A stretch of DNA of 39,098 nucleotides from Deltaproteobacteria bacterium (GTDB lineage: Bacteria > Desulfobacterota > Binatia > HRBIN30). A model generated the notes under the pieces. It worked only from the letters and a program-made list of their open reading frames with translations, made no database searches and was not told the origin of the DNA. Where the stretch lies: assembly GCA_016200585.1 (NCBI GenBank), contig JACQEN010000120.1, positions 1 through 39,098 on the forward strand. The letters run 5' to 3'. Below are positions 2 to 15,490 of this stretch, piece by piece. Every line of letters starts with the position of its first letter. The first letter of the stretch is position 1. Made by a program: the position numbers and the translations under genes.

Positions 2-1255
2 AACACGGCGATTCTCTATGAGGAAGCGCGTTTGACGCGTCTAGGCACCGAGAAGTTCATGCTCGACGGCCGCCACACCGGCACCGGCGGCGGCAACCAT
101 ATGACGATCGGCGGGCCGACGCCCTCCGACAGCCCGGTTCTCCGACGTCCCGAGCTGCTGCAGAGCCTGGTGACCTATTGGCAGAATCACCAAAGCTTGT
201 CGTATCTGGTTTCGGGAATGTTCGTCGGCCCGACGAGCCAGGCGCCGCGCATCGACGAGGCGCGCAACGAAAGCCTTTACGAGCTCGAGATCGCCTTCCA
301 GCAGATACCGGGTGGCGAGGTGCCGCAGCCGTGGCTTGTCGACCGTCTGCTTCGACACCTGCTGATCGATTCCACCGGCAACACGCATCGCGCCGAGTTC
401 TGCATCGACAAGCTCTACTCGCCCGACTCGTCGACCGGGCGTCTTGGTCTCGTCGAGATGCGTGCCTTCGAGATGCCGCCGCATTGGCAGATGAGTCTGG
501 TGCAGCAACTCTTGCTACGCGCCTTCATCGCCCGCTTCTGGCAGCAGCCATACCGGCAGCATCTGGTCCGCTGGGGCACGGAGCTGCACGACCGTTTTCT
601 GTTGCCGCACTTCGTCTGGCAGGATTTTCGCGACGTCCTTTGCGAGCTCCACAACTTCGGCTACGCATTCGAACCGGAGTGGTTTGCGCCGTTCTTCGAG
701 TTTCGCTTTCCTCCGTACGGCAGTGTTCAAATCGGGGATGTGCATCTGGAGCTGCGAATGGCGGTAGAGCCGTGGCACGTGCTCGGCGAAGAGGTGACGT
801 CGCAGGGCACGGCGCGCTATGTCGATTCCTCGGTGGAGCGGTTGCAAGTCAAAGTCCGCGGCATGACGGACCCGCGTCACGCCGTTACCTGCAACGGCCG
901 GCGGCTGCCGTTGCGGCCGACCGCTACCAAAGGCGACTACGTTGCCGGGGTGCGCTATCGCGCCTGGCAGCCGCCGTCGGCGCTTCATCCGACGATTGCC
1001 GTGCATGCGCCGCTGGTGTTCGACGTCATCGACACGTGGAGCGATCGCGCCATCGGCGGTTGCACGTACCACGTTGCCCACCCGGGAGGCCGCCACTACA
1101 GCACCTCCCCGGTGAACTCCTTCGCCGCCGAAGCGCGGCGCATTGCCCGTTTCTTTCCGTTCGGACACACTCCCGGACCGGTGACGGCGCCACCGGAAGA
1201 ACGCAGCCGCGATTTCCCGTATACATTGGATCTGCGCTACAGGGATGTGTGCTGA
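2..1255 (+). CDS. DUF2126 / transglutaminase-like protein, C-terminal part (5' truncated by window)
   Basis: Frame is open to the window edge ([33 protein letters not shown]...); C-terminal DUF2126-like motifs [27 protein letters not shown]; lies immediately upstream of a CP_ATP-grasp/alpha-E gene, the usual neighbourhood. Confidence 0.85.
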
Positions 1256-1260
1256 ACGCG

Positions 1261-3789
1261 ATGAGTGAGACAAACGCCGCCGAACCCCTGCGAGAGGAAG
1301 CCTTGCGCCTGCACGCCGAGTATCGTCTTGCGACCGATCGCTTCGACGAGATGTGCGCCAGCAACGGCGAGCTGCGTTCGCATTGGACGTACCTGGTGCG
1401 CGGGCTCGAGGCGTTGGGTCCGGTCGACTTCGACATTCGCTGCGAAGAAGCCCGACGGTTGCTGAACGAGAGCGGCGTCACCTACAACGTCTACTCGGAA
1501 CAAGCGACGACCGATCGGCTTTGGCCGCTGGATCCTCTGCCCCTGCTGCTGACGAGCAACGAATGGAGCCACATCGAGCAGGCAATGGCCCAGCGTGCCG
1601 AGTTGCTCGACTTGATTTTGAACGATCTGTACGGTCCGCAGCTGTTGCTGCGGCGCGGCGTGCTACCGCCCGAGCTGGTGTGGTCGCACCCCGGCTTTCT
1701 GCGTCCGTGTGTCGGCATGAAGGCCGTGCGGGCACCGCAGCTGCATCTCTATGCCGCCGATCTTGCACGTACGCCGGATGGCACGTTGCACGTCATCGGC
1801 GACCGTGCGCAAGCGCCCTCCGGAGCCGGCTACGCAGTCGAGAACCGCATGATCTTGTCGCGCGTCTTTCCCAGCTTGTACCGCGATTCCTCCGTGCACC
1901 GCCTGGCATTGTTCTTCCGCGCCTTCCGCGGCTTGCTGGGCCGGCTCGGACCGCGTGGGCAGGACAATCCGCGCATCGTCGTGCTCACCCCCGGGCCGGA
2001 GAACGAGACCTACTTCGAGCACGCCTACCTTTCGGCCTACCTCGGCTACCCGCTGGTCCAGGGCAGCGACCTGGTCGTCTATGAAGATCGAGTTTGGCTG
2101 CGGGCTCTCGACGGCGCGAAGCCGGTCGACGTGATTTTGCGGCGCGTGGACGACGAGTATTGCGATCCCCTCGAGCTGCGCGGTGATTCTCTCCTCGGAA
2201 CGCCTGGCCTGTTGCACGTCGTCCGTTCCGGCAACGTCGTCATCACCAACCCTCTCGGCAGCAGCATCTTGGAGAATCCCGGACTGATGGCTTTCCTGCC
2301 GCAGCTGGCGCGCGAGATTCTCGGCGAGAACCTGCATCTGTCGTCGGTCCCGACCTGGTGGTGCGGCGACAACCAAGGCCTGCAATACGTGCTCGAACAC
2401 ATCGAACAGTTGGTCGTCAAACCGATCGTTCCTCACGCCAGCGCCACGACCGTCTTCGGAGGTCTGCTGAGCACGCAAGAACGCTGGCAGCTGGCGGAGC
2501 GCATCCGCTCCCATCCGCATCTTTACGTCGGCCAGCACCATCTGGCCTTGTCGACAGCACCCACCGTCGCCAACGGCGGCGTCGAGCCGCGGCCGCTGGT
2601 GCTGCGCAGCTTCGCCGTTGCCAGCGACGGCGGCTACTTCGTCATGCCGGGCGGATTGTGCCGGGTTGCGCCGCGGCCCGACGTCGAAGTGGTATCGAAC
2701 CAGCTCGGCGGGGTCAGCAAAGACGTCTGGGTGTTGGCCTCGGAGCCGGAACGACAGGTGACGCTGATCAACACCGTCGCGCCGGCAGCCCAACTTGCCA
2801 GCGAGAGCGACGACGTACCGGCGCGTGTCGCGGACGATCTTTACTGGCTCGGACGCTACGCCGAACGCACGGACGGTACGGCGCGGCTGCTGCGCGAGGT
2901 ACTGGGACGGCTCCTCGAAGTCGAGCGCGTTCCGCACGACGAAGCATTGCCCCTGTTGCTGCAAGCGGTCACCGCGCAGACCGCCACCTACCCGGGCTTT
3001 ATCGGCGAGGGCCGCGAGGAGCGATTGCACGCGCCGGAAGGCGAGCTGACCGGCGTCGTCTATGATCGCCGCCGCGTCGGCAGCCTGCGCTACGACATCG
3101 ACGCCGTGGTGCGTGCCGGTCGTTCGGTGCGCGATCGGTTGTCGAGCGACGTGACGCGAGCCATCAACTCTCTCAATCGAGAGCTGGCGCGGCCGGGTGA
3201 TCTGACGTCGGCGTACGAAGCGCTGCAACGCATCGTCTTCTTGATGGCCGGCTTTGCCGGGTTGTGTAGCGACAGCATGAGCCGCAGCCAAGGCTGGTGC
3301 TTCTTGCAGATCGGACGTTCGCTCGAGCGCGCGGTGCAATCGGTGTCGCTGCTGCAATCGCTCCTCGTGCCGGCGGCCGATGCGGCAAACGTTTCGGCGC
3401 TCGAGGCCGTGCTGGCCGTGGCGCACAGTATCAAGACCTATCGCCGCCGCTATCGCGCTCAGATTCAGTTGAACGGAGTGATGGATCTGTTGTTCGTCGA
3501 TGAAACCAATCCGCGATCGGTCGGCTATGAGCTGGCGGCGCTCGAGGGATTGGTGGCGTCGCTCGACGGCAATATCGGTGCGCGACGCAGCGCCGCATCA
3601 CGCCTGGCGCTCGACGCGCTTACGCAGGTGCGGCTATTCAACCAGGAGACGGTAGTCGAATCCGGTACGGCACCCCTGGTGCCGCTGTTCGGGCAGCTTG
3701 CCGGCCAACTGGCGATGCTCTCGGATGAGCTCACCCGCCGCTATTTCACACACGCCGAGACGCCGCATCAATTGGTCCGGATCGCCTGA
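1261..3789 (+). CDS. Circularly permuted ATP-grasp + alpha-E (DUF403) fusion protein, ~842 aa
   Basis: ATG at 1261 in the frame of the 178..3789 ORF; ATP-grasp motifs (GVTYNVYSEQ, VIGDRAQAPSGAGYAVENR, LVVKPI) then alpha-E start ARVADDLYWLGRYAERTDGTARLLREV. Confidence 0.88.
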   Translation: MSETNAAEPLREEALRLHAEYRLATDRFDEMCASNGELRSHWTYLVRGLEALGPVDFDIRCEEARRLLNESGVTYNVYSEQATTDRLWPLDPLPLLLTSNEWSHIEQAMAQRAELLDLILNDLYGPQLLLRRGVLPPELVWSHPGFLRPCVGMKAVRAPQLHLYAADLARTPDGTLHVIGDRAQAPSGAGYAVENRMILSRVFPSLYRDSSVHRLALFFRAFRGLLGRLGPRGQDNPRIVVLTPGPENETYFEHAYLSAYLGYPLVQGSDLVVYEDRVWLRALDGAKPVDVILRRVDDEYCDPLELRGDSLLGTPGLLHVVRSGNVVITNPLGSSILENPGLMAFLPQLAREILGENLHLSSVPTWWCGDNQGLQYVLEHIEQLVVKPIVPHASATTVFGGLLSTQERWQLAERIRSHPHLYVGQHHLALSTAPTVANGGVEPRPLVLRSFAVASDGGYFVMPGGLCRVAPRPDVEVVSNQLGGVSKDVWVLASEPERQVTLINTVAPAAQLASESDDVPARVADDLYWLGRYAERTDGTARLLREVLGRLLEVERVPHDEALPLLLQAVTAQTATYPGFIGEGREERLHAPEGELTGVVYDRRRVGSLRYDIDAVVRAGRSVRDRLSSDVTRAINSLNRELARPGDLTSAYEALQRIVFLMAGFAGLCSDSMSRSQGWCFLQIGRSLERAVQSVSLLQSLLVPAADAANVSALEAVLAVAHSIKTYRRRYRAQIQLNGVMDLLFVDETNPRSVGYELAALEGLVASLDGNIGARRSAASRLALDALTQVRLFNQETVVESGTAPLVPLFGQLAGQLAMLSDELTRRYFTHAETPHQLVRIA

Positions 3790-3808
3790 CCTCAAAGGGA
3801 GTCTTGCC

Positions 3809-4696
3809 ATTCTCTTCCAGATCACCCACACGACCCATTATCGCTACAGCCAGCCGGTGACCTTGTGTCACAACGAAGTCCACCTGCGGCCGCGCGACCA
3901 GCCCGGGCAGAGTTGTCAGTCGAATCTGGTGACGATCGAGCCGGCGCCGGCGCAACTACATTGGCGCACCGACTACTTCGGCAACCCGGTTGCTTCCTTT
4001 GCGCTTCAGCAAGCGCACCAGTCGTTGACGGTGACCGCAACCAGCCGTGTAGAACGTCTAGCGGCGCAGATTCCGCTGCTTTCCGCGTCGATCGCTTGGG
4101 AACAAGTGGCAACGCGTGTGCGGGCAAATGGCTCCGACGACACGTGGATGGCACGTGAGCTGGTGCTCGACTCACCGCTCGTCGCGGTCTTCCCGGAGCT
4201 GCGCGACTACGCGTCGCCGTCGTTTGCGTCCGGACGTCCGCTGCTCGAGGCGGTTGCCGATCTCGCGGCGCGCATTCACCACGACTTTGCCTACGATCCC
4301 GACTTCACCACGGTGTCGACGGCGCTATCCGAGGTCCTGCGGTACCGCCGCGGCGTGTGCCAGGACTTCGCCCACCTGGCCATCGGTTGTTTGCGCTCGC
4401 TCGCCGTGCCGGCGCGCTATGTCAGTGGTTACATCGAAACGTTGGCGCCGCCGGGCGGCGAACGCTGGCGCGGCGCCGACGCGTCGCACGCCTGGGTCGC
4501 GGTCTGGGAACCTTCTCTTGGCTGGATCGAGATCGACCCGACGAACAACCAGTTCGTCGCGGAACGCCACGTTTCCCTGGCATGGGGACGCGACTACTCC
4601 GACGTCACACCGTTGAAGGGGGTGGTGTTCGGCGGCGGTAGCCACAGGCTCGACGTTTCCGTCGATGTTACGTCCATTGGAGCAGGCCACGCGTGA
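3809..4696 (+). CDS. Transglutaminase-like cysteine protease family protein (bacterial N-terminal transglutaminase domain)
   Basis: ILFQITHTTHYRYSQPVTLCHNEVHLRPRD...YRRGVCQDFAHLAIGCLRSLAVPARYVSGY...DASHAWVAVW...WIEIDPTNN: Cys-His-Asp triad motifs. Start is uncertain: no ATG/GTG/TTG in frame near the domain start; ATT 3809 lies 8 nt after AAAGGGA, alternatives are ATG 3698/3725. Confidence 0.87.
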   Translation: MLFQITHTTHYRYSQPVTLCHNEVHLRPRDQPGQSCQSNLVTIEPAPAQLHWRTDYFGNPVASFALQQAHQSLTVTATSRVERLAAQIPLLSASIAWEQVATRVRANGSDDTWMARELVLDSPLVAVFPELRDYASPSFASGRPLLEAVADLAARIHHDFAYDPDFTTVSTALSEVLRYRRGVCQDFAHLAIGCLRSLAVPARYVSGYIETLAPPGGERWRGADASHAWVAVWEPSLGWIEIDPTNNQFVAERHVSLAWGRDYSDVTPLKGVVFGGGSHRLDVSVDVTSIGAGHA

Positions 4697-5712
4697 AGAT
4701 CGACCACGAGTCTGTGCTGACGTTGCAGTTGCCGTATCGCGAACGTTTCGAGCTGCGGCGTACCGTGTTTCAGGGCGGCGACGGTCCGAAGGTCGCCGTG
4801 GTTTCCGGAATCCACGGCGACGAGCTGGAGGGAATCTACGTCTGCCACCGTCTGGCAGAATGGCTCGAGAAGACGACGGCGCTGCGGCCCGACGCATTGC
4901 GCGGACGCGTCGAGCTCTACCCGGCGCTCAATCCGCTGGGCATCGACACGCTCGAACGGTCGGTGCCGGTGTACGACACCGACCTCAATCGTAACTTTCC
5001 CGGCCACCCGGAAGGTCTATTGCCGCAGCGGCTCGCCGCCGCGGTCATGAATGCGTTGGCAGGAGCGTCGCTGGTTATCGACGTGCACGCCAGCAACATC
5101 TTCCTGCGCGAAATCCCACAGGTGCGCATCAACCAGGAATTCGCCGCGAGCCTCGTCCCGTTGGCGCGGACGATGAACCTCGATGTCGTGTGGCTACACG
5201 GAGCACTGACCGTACTCGAGGCGACCATTGCTCACAGCCTCAACGCGCGCGGCATTCCTTGCCTGGTGGTCGAAATGGGAGTCGGAATGCGCGTCACGCC
5301 GGCGTACAGCGATCAACTCCTCGTCGGCATCCTCAATACCTGGCAAGCGCTCGGGGTGCTCGATCCGGGACTCGAGTTGCCGAAGGCGACGCACGAGCCG
5401 TTGATCGCCGACGACTCGAACGTCCACTACTTGAATGCCGCCACGTCGGGCCTGTTCATTCCGGAGGTCGCCCACTGGATCTCGGTGTTTCAAGGGCAGA
5501 TCTTGGGACGCATCGTTTCGCCGCACGAGGCGGGCACGTTGTCGGAGGTGCGCTCACCGGTCAACGGCGTGTTGTTCACGCTACGCGAGTATCCGATCGT
5601 CTACGAAGGTTCGTTGATGGCTCGCATCATGGCGATCGACTTTGCGTCGATGCGCCAGGAGGGGAAGGAGAAGAATGACGTAGGCAGCCTGGGCGCGAGG
5701 AGTCCGACATGA
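4693..5712 (+). CDS. Succinylglutamate desuccinylase/aspartoacylase (M14) family protein, paralog 1
   Basis: GIHGDELEG, DLNRNFPG, VIDVHASN, VVEMGVGM motifs; GTG start overlaps preceding stop (GTGA). Confidence 0.87.
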   Translation: MKIDHESVLTLQLPYRERFELRRTVFQGGDGPKVAVVSGIHGDELEGIYVCHRLAEWLEKTTALRPDALRGRVELYPALNPLGIDTLERSVPVYDTDLNRNFPGHPEGLLPQRLAAAVMNALAGASLVIDVHASNIFLREIPQVRINQEFAASLVPLARTMNLDVVWLHGALTVLEATIAHSLNARGIPCLVVEMGVGMRVTPAYSDQLLVGILNTWQALGVLDPGLELPKATHEPLIADDSNVHYLNAATSGLFIPEVAHWISVFQGQILGRIVSPHEAGTLSEVRSPVNGVLFTLREYPIVYEGSLMARIMAIDFASMRQEGKEKNDVGSLGARSPT

Positions 5713-6704
5713 CCGATACGCCGAGCTTGCTGCAGATGACCGCGCCTTTGCGCGAGGACTTCGACATCCCGTACCACGACATCGGGCCGAAGAATGCGCC
5801 GGCGAGAGTCGCGCTCGTCGCCGGGATCCACGGCAACGAGCTCAACGGCGTGTTCGTGCTGTCACGCCTGGCGGCGTTTCTCAATGCGACCGCGTGCGGA
5901 GAACAGCCGGGTGTGGAGTTACGCGAACGCGTCATCGTCATACCGGCGGTCAACGTGTTGGGACTGAACACTCTGAGCCGCCGCTGGCCGTTCGATGGTA
6001 CCGATATCAATCGCATGTTTCCGGGATACAATGCCGGCGAGACAACGCAACGCATCGCCCACGCCGTGCTCGAGGTGACGCGCCCGGCTTCATACCGTGT
6101 CGATCTCCACAGCTCGAATCTTGAATTCGAGGAGCTGCCGCAGATTCGTTTGTATGCGCCAACCGAAGCGGAGCGTCTGACGGCGCGTTGCTTCGGAATG
6201 CCGGCCATCATCGAGCGCCCGATGAACAGCGTGTTTACCAGCACCATCGGTCACGCGTGGCGCGAAAGCGGTGGCCAGAATTTCGTCATCCAAGCGGGCC
6301 AAGCCGGGGTTCTACAGCCACAGCACTGCGAGCGCGTGTTCGCGGCACTGGTCCGCCTGCTCCAGCATGTCGAAGCGCTGGTAGGCGCGCCGCTGTCGAC
6401 CGACGACGCCGACGTCCACTATTTCGGCGTCGATCAGACCGCACCGCTCATTTCGGCGCACGCCGGCATTTTCGTTTCGCGCCTCGAGGTCGGGCGTTGG
6501 GTTCGTTCAGGCGAAGTCATCGGACAGGTCTACGACAGCTTCAACGGCGAGCTGCGTATCGAAATTCGTTCGCCGGTTTCGGGATTGCTCAGCGGTCTGC
6601 GGCGCCAGCCGCTGCTCTGCGAAGGCGATTTGATCGCGCGTATCGAGACGCGCCAGCCGGTGCCGTCGGGTGTCGATACGTATCTGCACGGGCAAGGCCA
6701 ATAG
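5709..6704 (+). CDS. Succinylglutamate desuccinylase/aspartoacylase (M14) family protein, paralog 2
   Basis: GIHGNELNG, DINRMFPGY, RVDLHSSN motifs; ATGA overlap with paralog 1; the position equivalent to VVEMG reads VIQAG. Confidence 0.85.
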   Translation: MTDTPSLLQMTAPLREDFDIPYHDIGPKNAPARVALVAGIHGNELNGVFVLSRLAAFLNATACGEQPGVELRERVIVIPAVNVLGLNTLSRRWPFDGTDINRMFPGYNAGETTQRIAHAVLEVTRPASYRVDLHSSNLEFEELPQIRLYAPTEAERLTARCFGMPAIIERPMNSVFTSTIGHAWRESGGQNFVIQAGQAGVLQPQHCERVFAALVRLLQHVEALVGAPLSTDDADVHYFGVDQTAPLISAHAGIFVSRLEVGRWVRSGEVIGQVYDSFNGELRIEIRSPVSGLLSGLRRQPLLCEGDLIARIETRQPVPSGVDTYLHGQGQ

Positions 6705-10865: not shown

Positions 10866-12776
10866 ATGCGCGACAAGCTCCTCGACTATCTTCTGCAACG
10901 GCCCGCCGGTGCTTCGCCGCAGGAGCTGCTCGATCTGATTTTCACGCAGCCGGGTAGCGACCCGGAGCTCGCGCCGCGCTTCCTGCAGACCCTGCTGGGC
11001 TGCGACAGCCGATTCTTCTGGCGCCCCGACGACGGTACATGGGTGGCGCGAGCGCACGACGTATTGGCCCGGCCGTTGGCGGCGACGCGGTTCGTCGTCG
11101 TCGATCTGGAGACCACAGGCTTACGCCCCAGCGCTCACGGCATCGTCGAGATCGGCGCGATCCGTATCGAAAACGGCAAGATCGTCGACCAGTTCTCACA
11201 GCTGGTCAATCCGGGTGTGCCGCTCCAACCGTTCATCGTTCGGCTCACCGGGATCTGCGACGCCATGCTCGCCGACCAGCCGCGCATCGACGCCGTGTGG
11301 CCACGTTTCGTCGAGTACCTCGGCGACGACGTGCTGCTGGCGCACAACGCAGGATACGACATGGGTTACCTCAATGCTGCTGCGTTCGCCTTCGGCGGGC
11401 GGCCCTTGCCCAACTCACATCTGTGCTCGCTCAAGTTGGCGCGACGTCTGGTGCCGGAATCGCGGCGCCGCGGGCTCGACGCGCTCGCCGGCGTCTTCGG
11501 AATCCCGCTCGCCGATCGCCACCGCGCCCTCGGGGACGCGCGCATCACCGCCGAGGTCTTCTTCCACCTGCTGGAACGCATGGCGGCACGCGGCATTTCG
11601 CGCTTGGACGAAGCCATCGAATTGCAACACCGGGCGCGCGATGGCCGGCCATTCGTTTGCTTTCTGCCGCGCGACAAAGTCGACCAACTGCCGCTACGGC
11701 CGGGCATCTACCGCTTCTTCGCCGAAGACGGCCGCTTGCTGTACGTCGGCAAAGCAAAGAATCTGCGGCAGCGGGTCGCCAGCTATTTGGGGAACGCCGC
11801 CGATCACTCCGACAAGACGCTCGACCTGATTCGCCACGCCCACGATGTGCGCGTCGAAGTGCTGGGTTCCGAGCTCGAAGCCGCGCTCGAGGAAGCAGTC
11901 GCGATCCGCCGCGAACAACCGCCCTACAATCGACTCGGCAAACACCTGCCGCGCATTGCCTTCCTCAAGCTATCGTTGCGCGATGCGTTCCCGCGCTTGT
12001 CGATTGCCCGCCGCCTCGGTGCCGGGCAGGCGCAGTACATCGGCCCATTTCGCAACCGCGACGAAGCCGAGAGCATGCTCGGGTTGCTCACGCGCCTGTA
12101 TCGCTTGCGCACCTGCAGTGGCCGCTTGCAACCCGACCCGGGCTTTTCGCCGTGCCTGCAGGGTCAGGTGGGAGCGTGTAGCGAACCGTGCGCCGCACGG
12201 GTGACGAGCATCGAGTATCGTCGACAGGTGGAGGCATGCCTGGCGTTGCTGGTGGATACTTGCCCTGCAACGGAGGGCGCTCTTGCGGCCGCCCGGTTGC
12301 AGCTCACCCGGCGCCGTGACGAGCTTTCGGCCGAGCTACGTTTCGAGGCGGCAGCGAAGGTCCAGCGCGACGTCGATTTGCTACAGCGCTTGGAGCGCCG
12401 GCAGCGCACCCTTGGTTGGATCAGTACGCGACAGAACTTCCTGGTGCTGCAGCCGACGGCGGATCACCGTCTGGTGCTTGCCTATGGCGTGATCGGCGGC
12501 CGCCTGGCGCTACGTGCTCGGCTTGCCGACGCGAGCGAGATCAACGCTTTGGTGCCGCAACTAATGGCGGAGCTCGACGAGGGTAAGAAGCGCGGGCTGC
12601 GGCCCGACGATGTCGACGGAACGGTGATCCTCGCAGCCTGGCTGCGTGACCACGGCGAGAAGGTAGGCTGTGTCTTTCGCTTGGACCCGCCGCGCGAGCA
12701 AAAAAAATGGCCCGCCACCCAGGTTGATGAGTGGCGGGCCGCTTGTACGAGCTTACTTACGCCGGTTGCGGATTAG
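10866..12776 (+). CDS. DnaQ-like DEDDh exonuclease + GIY-YIG (UvrC/Cho-like) nuclease fusion with UVR-like segment
   Basis: VVDLETTGLRPSAHGIVEIGAI ... LAHNAGYDMGYL ... HRALGDARITAEVF (DEDDh); PGIYRFFAEDGRLLYVGKAKNLRQRVASYLG (GIY-YIG); LTRRRDELSAELRFEAAAKVQRDVDLLQRLE (UVR-like). Confidence 0.9.
   Translation: MRDKLLDYLLQRPAGASPQELLDLIFTQPGSDPELAPRFLQTLLGCDSRFFWRPDDGTWVARAHDVLARPLAATRFVVVDLETTGLRPSAHGIVEIGAIRIENGKIVDQFSQLVNPGVPLQPFIVRLTGICDAMLADQPRIDAVWPRFVEYLGDDVLLAHNAGYDMGYLNAAAFAFGGRPLPNSHLCSLKLARRLVPESRRRGLDALAGVFGIPLADRHRALGDARITAEVFFHLLERMAARGISRLDEAIELQHRARDGRPFVCFLPRDKVDQLPLRPGIYRFFAEDGRLLYVGKAKNLRQRVASYLGNAADHSDKTLDLIRHAHDVRVEVLGSELEAALEEAVAIRREQPPYNRLGKHLPRIAFLKLSLRDAFPRLSIARRLGAGQAQYIGPFRNRDEAESMLGLLTRLYRLRTCSGRLQPDPGFSPCLQGQVGACSEPCAARVTSIEYRRQVEACLALLVDTCPATEGALAAARLQLTRRRDELSAELRFEAAAKVQRDVDLLQRLERRQRTLGWISTRQNFLVLQPTADHRLVLAYGVIGGRLALRARLADASEINALVPQLMAELDEGKKRGLRPDDVDGTVILAAWLRDHGEKVGCVFRLDPPREQKKWPATQVDEWRAACTSLLTPVAD
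12700..12740 (-). terminator. Strong Rho-independent terminator for the minus-strand FG-GAP gene, inside the 3' end of the plus-strand CDS
   Basis: Plus strand AAAAAAAA T GGCCCGCCAC-CCAGGTTGATGA-GTGGCGGGCC; on the minus strand a perfect 10-bp stem followed by A and a T8 tract, 12 nt past the stop at 12753. Confidence 0.88.
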
Positions 12777-15490
12777 CGGGATCGAGCGCACCAGCACACT
12801 CTGCGCCCGGCGTCGCAGCCAGAAGGCAAACGGCAGGACAGCCAGAAGCGCGAGGCCGTCGTGGCCGTTTTGACCATCGCCGATCGTGCAACCGCCACTA
12901 CGGCTCACCGAAACCTTGAACGGCGGCGTCGGCGTGGGTGGTACGTCTTGAATGGCAGTTGCTGTCGGACTCGGCGGTGGAGCGCACAGTAGCGTCACCG
13001 GGTTGCAGAAACTGGTTTCGCAGTCGGCCGGTTTCTCGCATGAATCATCGATCATCAACGGCGGTACACAGTAGCCTTTGAAGTTGAAGATGTCGCAGCG
13101 ATTCGGACGAGTGCACGGGTTGCTGTCGCAGCAGACGCCATCGATGCAGCCTTGTGCATCGGTGTTGCACTGCGAAGCGTTGGTGCAAACGTCTCCCAAC
13201 ATGTTCTTCGTCGGCACGGGTGTTGGGGTGGGGTCCTGTTGATGGCAAAAGCCCGCTTGACCTACTTGAGTACTGCGACAGGTCTGGCCGTCCGGACACT
13301 GTTGCAGGTTGCAGCAGACCCCGCCTTCGAAGGTGTTACACAGATATCCACCCTGACATTGCGCCGTCGTTCCGCAAGAACCGCCCGGTGGAACCGGGGT
13401 CGGCGACAGTGTCGGCGTGGCTGTCGGAGGCGTGTCGCATTGCTTGCTGGCATTGCAGTACCCCGAGGTGCAATCTTGATTTCCGGAGCACGACACGCCG
13501 TTTCCACCCTTCTGCACGCAGTGACCTGGGCTGGCGGGCATGCTGCACGACTCGTTGGCCCCACAGCTCGCCGACTCGCAACAAACGCCGTCGACACAGT
13601 TCCCTGAGAGACAATTTGCCCCGAAGCTGCATCTTGCGCCGAGCCCGGCGGGCGTTGGCGTAAGCGTCGGCAGTGGGGTCTTTGTCGGTGTTGGTGTCTT
13701 TGCCGGAGCCGGAACGCACCGGCCCTCGGAACCGGGGAAGGCGCAGGTTTCGCTGTCGGTACACTGTCTCTCGCAGCAGAAGTTGTTTTCGCAGAAGGAC
13801 GGGTCGCAAGCGGTGATGTCCGTCGTGCTGGTGCAACACTGGCGCGAATCCGTGCAGGGTTGACCGGGTGGCAGACGCGTGGTGCAAACGCCTTCGGAGC
13901 CGGGGATGTTGCAGGCGGCGTTGACGGCGCAAGACGCGTCGCCGCAGCAGACGCCGTCGGTGCAATGATTCGAGGAACACTGCTCGTCGGCATTGCACTG
14001 CGTCCCGTTGGAGGCCGGCGGCGCGCACATCCCGGTGTTGCAGTATTGACCAAGGGGGCAAGAAATCGTGGTGCAGCAGAAGCCGTTCACACAATCATGC
14101 GTCGAGCACTGGGTACCGTCGAGGTCCGTGCACGGCGTTCCCGGCGGTGCGGGTTGCTGACACGTCCCCGGGTTGGGCAGAATGTCGCAGAATTGGCCGG
14201 TCGGACACGACCCCGAATCGCAGCACACGCCGTCGACGCACTTGCCTGAAAGGCACTGGCGCCCGACCACACAGGACTCCCCGAGATTCTTTTTTGGGGG
14301 TGTTTTGGCGCGCAGGACCTGCACGGTGCTGTCGGTGTAGGCGGTCACGACGACATCGGGCACGGAATCTCCAGTGACGTCGGCGGCGACGATACGACGC
14401 GGCCCGAGGCCGACGATGATCTGTGTGCCGAAATCGAAGGTGCCGTCCCCGCGTCCAGCGTAGGCGTTGACGAAGCCCGAGGTCGCCTGCTGCGTGTTGG
14501 TGGCGCGGGTGCTGAAGGAAATGGCGATGTCCGGCCGCGAGTCGCTGTCGAAGTCACCGGTCTTGATGTCTTGCGGTTGGCAAACGACCTCAATGCCGTT
14601 GAGACGCGATGGACAACCGAAGATGATCGGAGGGAGAACGTTGAACAGCGGGTTGACGTCGCCGAGGAGAATCGAAAGCGTGAAGTTGTTGAGGCCGGCG
14701 CCTCCGCTGTTGACGACGGCGATGTCGAGCTTGCCGTCGTTGTTGAAGTCGCCGGTGGTCATGGCAACGGTGTTGACGCCGACGACGTAGCGCTGCGGTA
14801 CGATTCCCTGGAAGGTTCCGTTACCCTGGTTCAGATAGATCGACACCTCGTCGACGCCACGCGTGCCGGTGTCGAGAAGGATGAGGTCGTCGAAATGGTC
14901 GTTGTTGAGATCGGCAGACAGAATCGAACGTGGGCCGACGCCGGTAGGAAAGCTCCCGACCGCGGCCAAACCACGGGTGCCGCCGGCGTTGTTGAACACG
15001 GTGAACGTGTCGCGCGTGCGGTTGGCAACGGCGACGTCAAGCGACGGACCGGAATCGAAATGGCCGGGGACGACGTCGTACGGGCCGCGCGCCTGTCCGG
15101 CAAAGAACTGCGGTGAAGAAAAAGTGGCTCCAGTCTGTCCCGAAATGACGAAGATACCACCGGAGTAGTTGTCGGCAACGACGATGTCTGGAATGCGGTC
15201 GGCGTTGAAGTCGCCGGTGGAGATATCACGCCGGTCGGGATCTCGACGACGGAGCCGGCGAAATTCCCATCCGGAGAACCAAACAGGACGGTTACGGTGT
15301 CGCGAACCGTGCTCGAAACGACCGCATCCATGATGTTGTCGTTGTTGAAATCATCCGCAGCGATAAACGCCGGTCCGCTCGGGACCTTGCGGGCGACACC
15401 CGGAACGAACGAAATTTGTGCCCAGCACATGGCAGGCAGCAGCAGGGCCACGGTAAACAGAGACTGGGCGCCAAAAAACTTACGACTCAT
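12753..15490 (-). CDS. Secreted FG-GAP/VCBS repeat protein with nine Cys-rich modules and MYXO-CTERM-like C-terminus; contains an apparent frameshift near 15235
   Basis: Signal peptide MSRKFFGAQSLFTVALLLPAMCWAQ; FG-GAP units (DFNNDNIMDAVV, DFNADRIPDIVVA, DLNNDHFDDLIL, DFNNDGKLDIAVV); modules like LGxxCxxGxxCxSGxCVDGVCCxxxxC...C; C-terminal SGGCTIG-TM-RRR. The homologous reading passes from ORF 14831..15490 to ORF 12753..14999 (open upstream) by a -1 shift. Confidence 0.78.

Follow-up and report, generated by a model that had tools for sequence, protein, structure and literature searches.

The described protein closest in structure to those considered here is EutE/DoeB, the N-acetyl-L-2,4-diaminobutyrate deacetylase (PDB codes 6twm and 6twl), which, like the proteins of PDB codes 3cdx, 3na6 and 2qj8, shares subfamily and fold with p2, the second member of a tandem pair (p1 and p2) of M14 proteins of the succinylglutamate desuccinylase/aspartoacylase (AstE/AspA) type. 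The Zn motif, the DxNR motif and the strand of the catalytic Glu align between DoeB and p2, but DoeB keeps this Glu and p2 is devoid of it. With respect to the way in which such a pair could operate, the mitochondrial processing peptidase (MPP) of family M16 is built of α and β subunits, one active and the other an inactive homolog, which work together as is proposed here for p1 and p2; it belongs, however, to an unrelated fold family, and the p1-p2 heteromer is a predicted one. MPP is counted among the pseudopeptidases in PMC11266112.

M14 pseudoenzymes that have lost the catalytic Glu but not the Zn ligands are already known from Ecm14, a fungal pseudopeptidase conserved in ascomycetes, in which Glu270, the general base of M14 carboxypeptidases (PMC7706225), is replaced by Lys (K270) and for which no activity was detected, according to PMC7706225 and PMC11266112. 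Ecm14 thus resembles p2 in its active site but differs in belonging to the CPA/B subfamily, in its fungal origin and in its prodomain, and no tandem active partner is described for it in the passages considered from the two papers. Sharing the fold of p2 (E ~1e-19), the cyanophycin dipeptide hydrolase CphZ (PDB codes 8ein and 8eip) is an M14/AstE-type isoaspartyl dipeptidase, so that cleavage of isoaspartyl bonds is known in the AstE-type family (PMC10206079); it differs from p1 and p2 in being a single active enzyme of 370 amino acids, remote in sequence. An equivalence of CphZ E251 with Gln195 of p2 is not claimed here, because, in the ungapped profile match, the Glu column corresponds to chain position 242. 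Concerning gene neighbourhood, the Anbu operon, made of ATP-grasp, Alpha-E, transglutaminase and Anbu genes and of unsettled function (PMC6376114), resembles the present locus in that the same three companion families stand beside a putative hydrolase. Here, however, it is the M14 pair that follows the transglutaminase gene, and no Anbu gene was seen next to the pair. An incomplete search of the literature returned no description of a bacterial AstE/AspA-type pseudoenzyme in tandem with an intact paralog, nor of the reciprocal loss reported below, and the word aspartoacylase is absent from a 2024 review (PMC11266112).

Organization of the locus

The pair occurs in the window, i.e., the whole stretch of 39,098 nucleotides that was analysed (contig JACQEN010000120.1 of assembly GCA_016200585.1, a member of the Binatia). 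Reading along the plus strand, the C-terminal half of a DUF2126 gene, an ATP-grasp/Alpha-E fusion and a transglutaminase-like gene precede p1 and p2 (Table 1), the stop codon of the transglutaminase-like gene overlapping the GTG start codon of p1 by 4 nucleotides (GTGA). Both M14 proteins exceed the cut-off of 25 bits and belong to PF24827 by profile, the p2 model belonging to it also by fold, and a profile search of the whole genome yielded no other match to PF24827. Identity with DoeB (TIGR02994) was discarded, p1 and p2 reaching 59.2 and 49.8 bits against an equivalog cut-off of 402.7. A mis-binned contig was likewise ruled out, since the RF2 gene of the window shows 81% identity to genomes of the same family and the contig therefore belongs to the bin. 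Elsewhere in the window, on the minus strand (12753-14999), a 748-amino acid ORF begins with a FG-GAP-like region and continues with repeated cysteine-rich stretches (e.g., CVDGVCC) separated by Thr/Pro-rich linkers.

Table 1. Coordinates of the genes and residues of the M14 pair and of the genes preceding it in the window.
Feature	Position	Strand	Basis or remark
DUF2126 putative amidoligase, C-terminal half, running off the window start	2..1255	+	PF09899 positions 425-826
Fusion of a circularly permuted ATP-grasp with an Alpha-E domain, putative start	1261..3789	+	PF14403, PF04174, PF04168
Transglutaminase-like protein, start uncertain	3698..4696	+	PF08379, PF01841
p1, AstE/AspA-like M14 protein, 339 aa	4693..5712	+	PF24827 80.3 bits; GTG start, TGA stop
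p1 Glu194 at the catalytic position, codon GAA	5272..5274	+	Translation, BLASTP alignment
ATGA overlap of p1 stop and p2 start	5709..5712	+	4 nt
p2, AstE/AspA-like M14 protein, 331 aa, probable pseudoenzyme	5709..6704	+	PF24827 78.6 bits; ATG start
p2 HGNE, putative Zn ligands His41 and Glu44	5829..5840	+	Invariant in 14/14 paired group I p2
p2 Arg102 of DINR	6012..6014	+	Invariant in 14/14 paired group I p2
p2 His134, putative third Zn ligand	6108..6110	+	Invariant in 14/14 paired group I p2
p2 Trp184, diagnostic of the p2 clade	6258..6260	+	W in 46/46 paired-set p2 and 27/27 orphan p2
p2 Gln195 at the catalytic-Glu position, codon CAA	6291..6293	+	Translation, BLASTP alignment, orthologs

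The catalytic position

The initial annotation had read a Glu codon in p1 and a Gln codon at the equivalent position of p2, and had listed GIHGxE, D(L/I)NR and HxSN as motifs common to both paralogs. Translation returns the same codons at the same coordinates, the three motifs (the last as H(A/S)SN) are present in both proteins, and BLASTP (32% identity over 322 amino acids, E 3e-49) aligns PCLVVEMGVGM of p1 with QNFVIQAGQAG of p2, pairing Glu194 with Gln195 with no gap in this region. In sequence and profile alignments, the conserved Glu of 3cdx, 2qj8, 3na6 and 6twm/6twl also falls opposite Gln195. The AlphaFold2 model of p2 (pLDDT 91.1, pTM 0.90) locates Gln195 on strand 190-197; its top Foldseek match is DoeB 6twm (E 4.5e-24, TM 0.75), other good matches are 3cdx, 3na6, 2qj8 and CphZ, and succinylglutamate desuccinylases, aminoacylase 3 and aspartoacylase come next. 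Together, the structure-sequence alignments and the strand position put no other Glu of p2 at this place. A lost Glu that would result from chance or misalignment is ruled out by the orthologs, the profile alignments and the p2 model.

The catalytic role ascribed to the aligned Glu rests on the literature devoted to relatives. Glu178 of human aspartoacylase is a main contributor to activity, as stated in PMC10240701 with reference to Herga et al. 2006, and murine aminoacylase 3 was crystallised as its E177A mutant (PDB code 3nh5). In p1 and p2 alike, as well as in the 14 group I orthologs of either protein, the Zn triad HxxE...H is complete. The catalytic Glu expected of an active AstE/AspA-type M14 enzyme is present in p1 (Glu194) and, because Gln195 takes its place, p2 is not classed as an active member of this type.

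Conservation and selection in the window's group

Relatives, genome contigs and whole-genome searches of three large groups supplied the orthologs. The window's own group, referred to as group I, comprises 14 distinct complete pairs, found in genomes of the Binatia type and of a further class of that phylum, in Gammaproteobacteria and in one record labelled Deltaproteobacteria. In these pairs p1 displays the full set of H, E, N, R, H and E residues (14/14), and p2 the set H, E, N, R and H (14/14, Asn101 being as invariant as Arg102), with Gln in 11 and Arg in three of the 14 sequences at the catalytic-Glu column and Glu in none of them. The same column contains Glu in 14/14 group I p1 and in all 58 unpaired relatives, which argues that the substitution is not a matter of chance. 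Glu in orthologs of p2, an observation that would have spoken against the initial annotation, was encountered solely in 2 of the 26 sequences from a remote Myxococcota branch. Trp184 is common to the p2 of this group and of the second one described below (46/46) and is absent from the unpaired relatives and from p1, save four degenerate p1.

The order p1-p2 is constant, p2 always lying 3' of p1 in group I, and a 4-nucleotide overlap exists in most pair loci; none of the loci read contains a natural p1-p2 fusion. Close ortholog pairs with estimable dS gave NG86 dN/dS values of about 0.05-0.35 for p2, similar to those of p1, these values being rough as dS is high in several pairs. Loss of Glu across orthologs and purifying selection are thus found together, as in a conserved M14 pseudoenzyme, and the invariance of the Zn ligands, the DxNR Arg and the Trp, combined with a dN/dS far below 1, rules out for p2 both a gene in decay and an ordinary enzyme. 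Among the matches listed, plasmids carry only remote relatives (27-31% identity). An unpaired relative, L131 (genome G868), has kept Glu but has two Zn ligands replaced (AIYGNELNG, DLRTG) and is likely, judging from these residues, an independent pseudoenzyme.

Reciprocal losses in the Myxococcota

A second group of pairs (group II; loci L034-L045 and L088-L114), mostly from Myxococcota, displays a different distribution of the losses. All three Zn ligands of p1 are replaced, with GIRGDxPEG and ELRGA at the ligand sites, yet 19/23 of the p1 sequences still have the Glu and 23/23 the Arg, and a Zn-less p1 was modelled as a complete AstE/AspA fold (pLDDT 96). For p2, the first two Zn ligands occur in 24/24 readable sequences and the third in 18/26; Arg, Val, Thr or Ile replaces Glu in 24/26, and the active-site Arg is usually missing. 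The p2 of L094 and L095 do carry Glu at the catalytic column, a residue that would be either retained or regained, and their p1 partners are devoid of Zn ligands. In four pairs (L111-L114), most of both sites are lost. Where p2 has an intact Zn-binding His, 16/17 pairs retain the p1 Glu, versus 3/10 where this His is missing (Fisher p 0.0009, uncorrected for phylogeny, the loss of the Zn-His corresponding to a single clade). An homologous ORF lies 3' of the group II pair in seven of ten loci (L035, L036, L037, L039, L042, L043 and L044), and a C15 pyroglutamyl-peptidase was recognized by Pfam directly downstream of the pair in the locus examined for this purpose (L035:10892-11443).

Orphan p2 and the history of the duplication

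The gammaproteobacterial order of Plasticicumulans (genome G296) shows a third situation. Matches to p2 occur in 31 of 40 genomes, three of them with the pair and 28 with p2 alone, the latter count depending on a threshold that is close to p1 scores. In the 27 orphan loci that were read (L163-L189), no p1 is adjacent, the Zn triad persists in one sequence and DxNR in none; position 195 is occupied by His in 20 loci, by Arg in four, by Tyr or Cys, and by Gln in one. Trp184 is nevertheless always kept (Table 1), and a gene for PCMT (protein-L-isoaspartate O-methyltransferase) follows p2 in 26/27 loci. A p1-profile search of two genomes, G608 and G739, detected no p1 elsewhere in them. Comparison of the orphan p2 of L122 and L123 gives a NG86 dN/dS of 0.21. 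Since the Zn triad is complete in 14/14 p2 located beside p1 and in 1/27 without an adjacent p1, the sequences suggest that p2 depends on its metal site only when p1 accompanies it.

A 142-sequence tree separates the proteins of pairs from the unpaired ones (support 99) and unites the p1 of groups I and II (97-98). With a reduced set, constraining all p2 together gave a likelihood 3.3 lnL better than the free search (p-AU 0.575), and grouping the p1 and p2 of group I was 22 units worse (p-AU 0.099). From these supports and constraints, a single ancient duplication preceding the split of groups I and II appears as the best reading, the union of the p2 being not strongly supported and long branches being present.

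The neighbouring amide-bond module

Genes for ATP-grasp, Alpha-E or transglutaminase proteins adjoin 11 of the 14 group I pairs; the other three, all from the Plasticicumulans order, are unlinked to the ATP-grasp module. Co-occurrence with Alpha-E was dropped as evidence in that order because Alpha-E is found in 32/32 further genomes searched, with or without p2, and is therefore uninformative there. Since 28/28 group II genomes are devoid of Alpha-E, the pair cannot be explained by the module alone. Neither the pair nor Alpha-E occurs in six genomes belonging to the same family as the window; the ATP-grasp/Alpha-E module is therefore patchy and was probably gained laterally.

Another contig, C58 (G000; L159:3-2426), ends in the N-terminal part of a DUF2126 gene (profile 2-443), preceded by separate ATP-grasp and Alpha-E genes. 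The DUF2126 halves of C58 and of the window being complementary, C58 probably lies just upstream of the window, though without an exact overlap of the contig ends. As a separate observation, the unpaired AstE/AspA-type gene of L148 (NZ_CP010630.1, 82819-84767) is located directly beside rimK, which encodes an ATP-grasp ligase. The recurrent neighbours of the pairs and orphans (ATP-grasp, transglutaminase, PCMT and pyroglutamyl peptidase), together with the isoaspartyl activity of the related CphZ, suggest that the bonds acted upon are unusual amide or isopeptide ones.

Possible functions of the pair

The explanation considered probable combines an active hydrolase, p1, with a conserved pseudoenzyme, p2, in a complex that is probably heteromeric and attached to the ATP-grasp/Alpha-E/transglutaminase module. 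In this scheme, p1 would be a Zn-dependent M14 amidohydrolase or peptidase of the succinylglutamate desuccinylase/aspartoacylase type, with Zn held by His41, Glu44 and His132, the substrate carboxylate held by Arg100 and a water molecule activated by Glu194. Its ancient tandem paralog p2, in which the water-activating Glu has given way to Gln195, probably still folds and binds Zn and the end of the substrate, but turnover at a normal rate would not be possible. Being translationally coupled, p2 would most likely form a heteromer with p1 and, as a non-catalytic subunit, could stabilise or regulate p1 or present the substrate to it. An amide or isopeptide bond formed by the co-encoded DUF2126/ATP-grasp-Alpha-E/transglutaminase module would most likely be what the pair trims or reverses. 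The unanimity of Glu in p1 and in unpaired relatives as opposed to its replacement in every group I p2, the literature on the equivalent Glu, a purifying selection on p2 comparable to that on p1, the fixed and mostly overlapping gene order, the tree, the dependence of the Zn triad on an adjacent p1 and the genes beside most group I pairs all speak for this explanation. It has to accommodate the conservative nature of a Glu-to-Gln exchange, which could leave some activity, the three unlinked group I pairs and the absence of Alpha-E from group II. It must also accommodate the p2 that persist without an adjacent p1 in some 28 genomes of one order and indicate that p2 already has a function without p1 or is able to gain one.

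The orphans are the argument for regarding p2 as a standalone pseudoenzyme, a sensor or adaptor that would bind Zn or a ligand and be engaged in no obligate complex with p1. Their purifying selection, their constant Trp184 and the PCMT gene next to them make this a possible, clearly less probable, alternative, given that, wherever p1 is present, the two genes lie side by side, coupled and in an unchanging order, and that the Zn site survives, in the window's group, only beside p1. That p2 could be an active enzyme of altered chemistry or specificity with a functional Gln195 is unlikely: the complete Zn triad and Arg and the polar residue at position 195 of group I are compatible with it, and unusual M14 active sites do exist, such as that of Csd4 with Gln at position 46 (PDB code 4wcm), but position 195 drifts among Gln, Arg and His in group I and the orphans and among Val, Ile, Thr and Arg in group II, and is ill-suited to a defined catalytic role. 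Moreover, Ecm14, with Lys at the equivalent position, showed no activity (PMC11266112). The initial annotation had left a choice between an active enzyme paired with a pseudoenzyme and one paired with an enzyme of altered specificity. As no other Glu of p2 aligns with the catalytic place and none of its group I orthologs has Glu there, the former is well supported; the latter is less likely because of the drift at position 195 and the decay of the Zn site without an adjacent p1.

For the Myxococcota, the association of the p1 Glu with the p2 Zn-His leads to the proposal of a composite active site, in which p2 would hold Zn and p1 would supply Glu and Arg across the interface, neither being an enzyme alone. 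The complementary losses of the two group II proteins agree with it, but p1 and p2 are each predicted to fold as complete domains, known M14 folds place the Glu in its own pocket, and the pairs L111-L114 have lost both residue sets, which makes the proposal improbable. Loss of a catalytic residue is also the first thing expected of a decaying, non-functional duplicate; this possibility, practically nil, is refuted by the conservation of p2 across several bacterial phyla or classes, by dN/dS values far below 1 and by the invariance of the Zn ligands.

Significance of the pair

Descriptions of M14 pseudoenzymes have so far come mainly from animals and fungi. The proteins reported here are bacterial and of the AstE/AspA type, an intact paralog and a Glu-less one having remained coupled since what is best read as one ancient duplication. 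Three natural outcomes can be compared: an intact protein with a probable pseudoenzyme in the window, reciprocal loss in the Myxococcota, and an orphan p2 losing its metal site in the Plasticicumulans order. In this respect, the pair offers a tractable system to understand why dead enzymes persist, as well as a handle on the uncharacterised ATP-grasp/Alpha-E/transglutaminase module.
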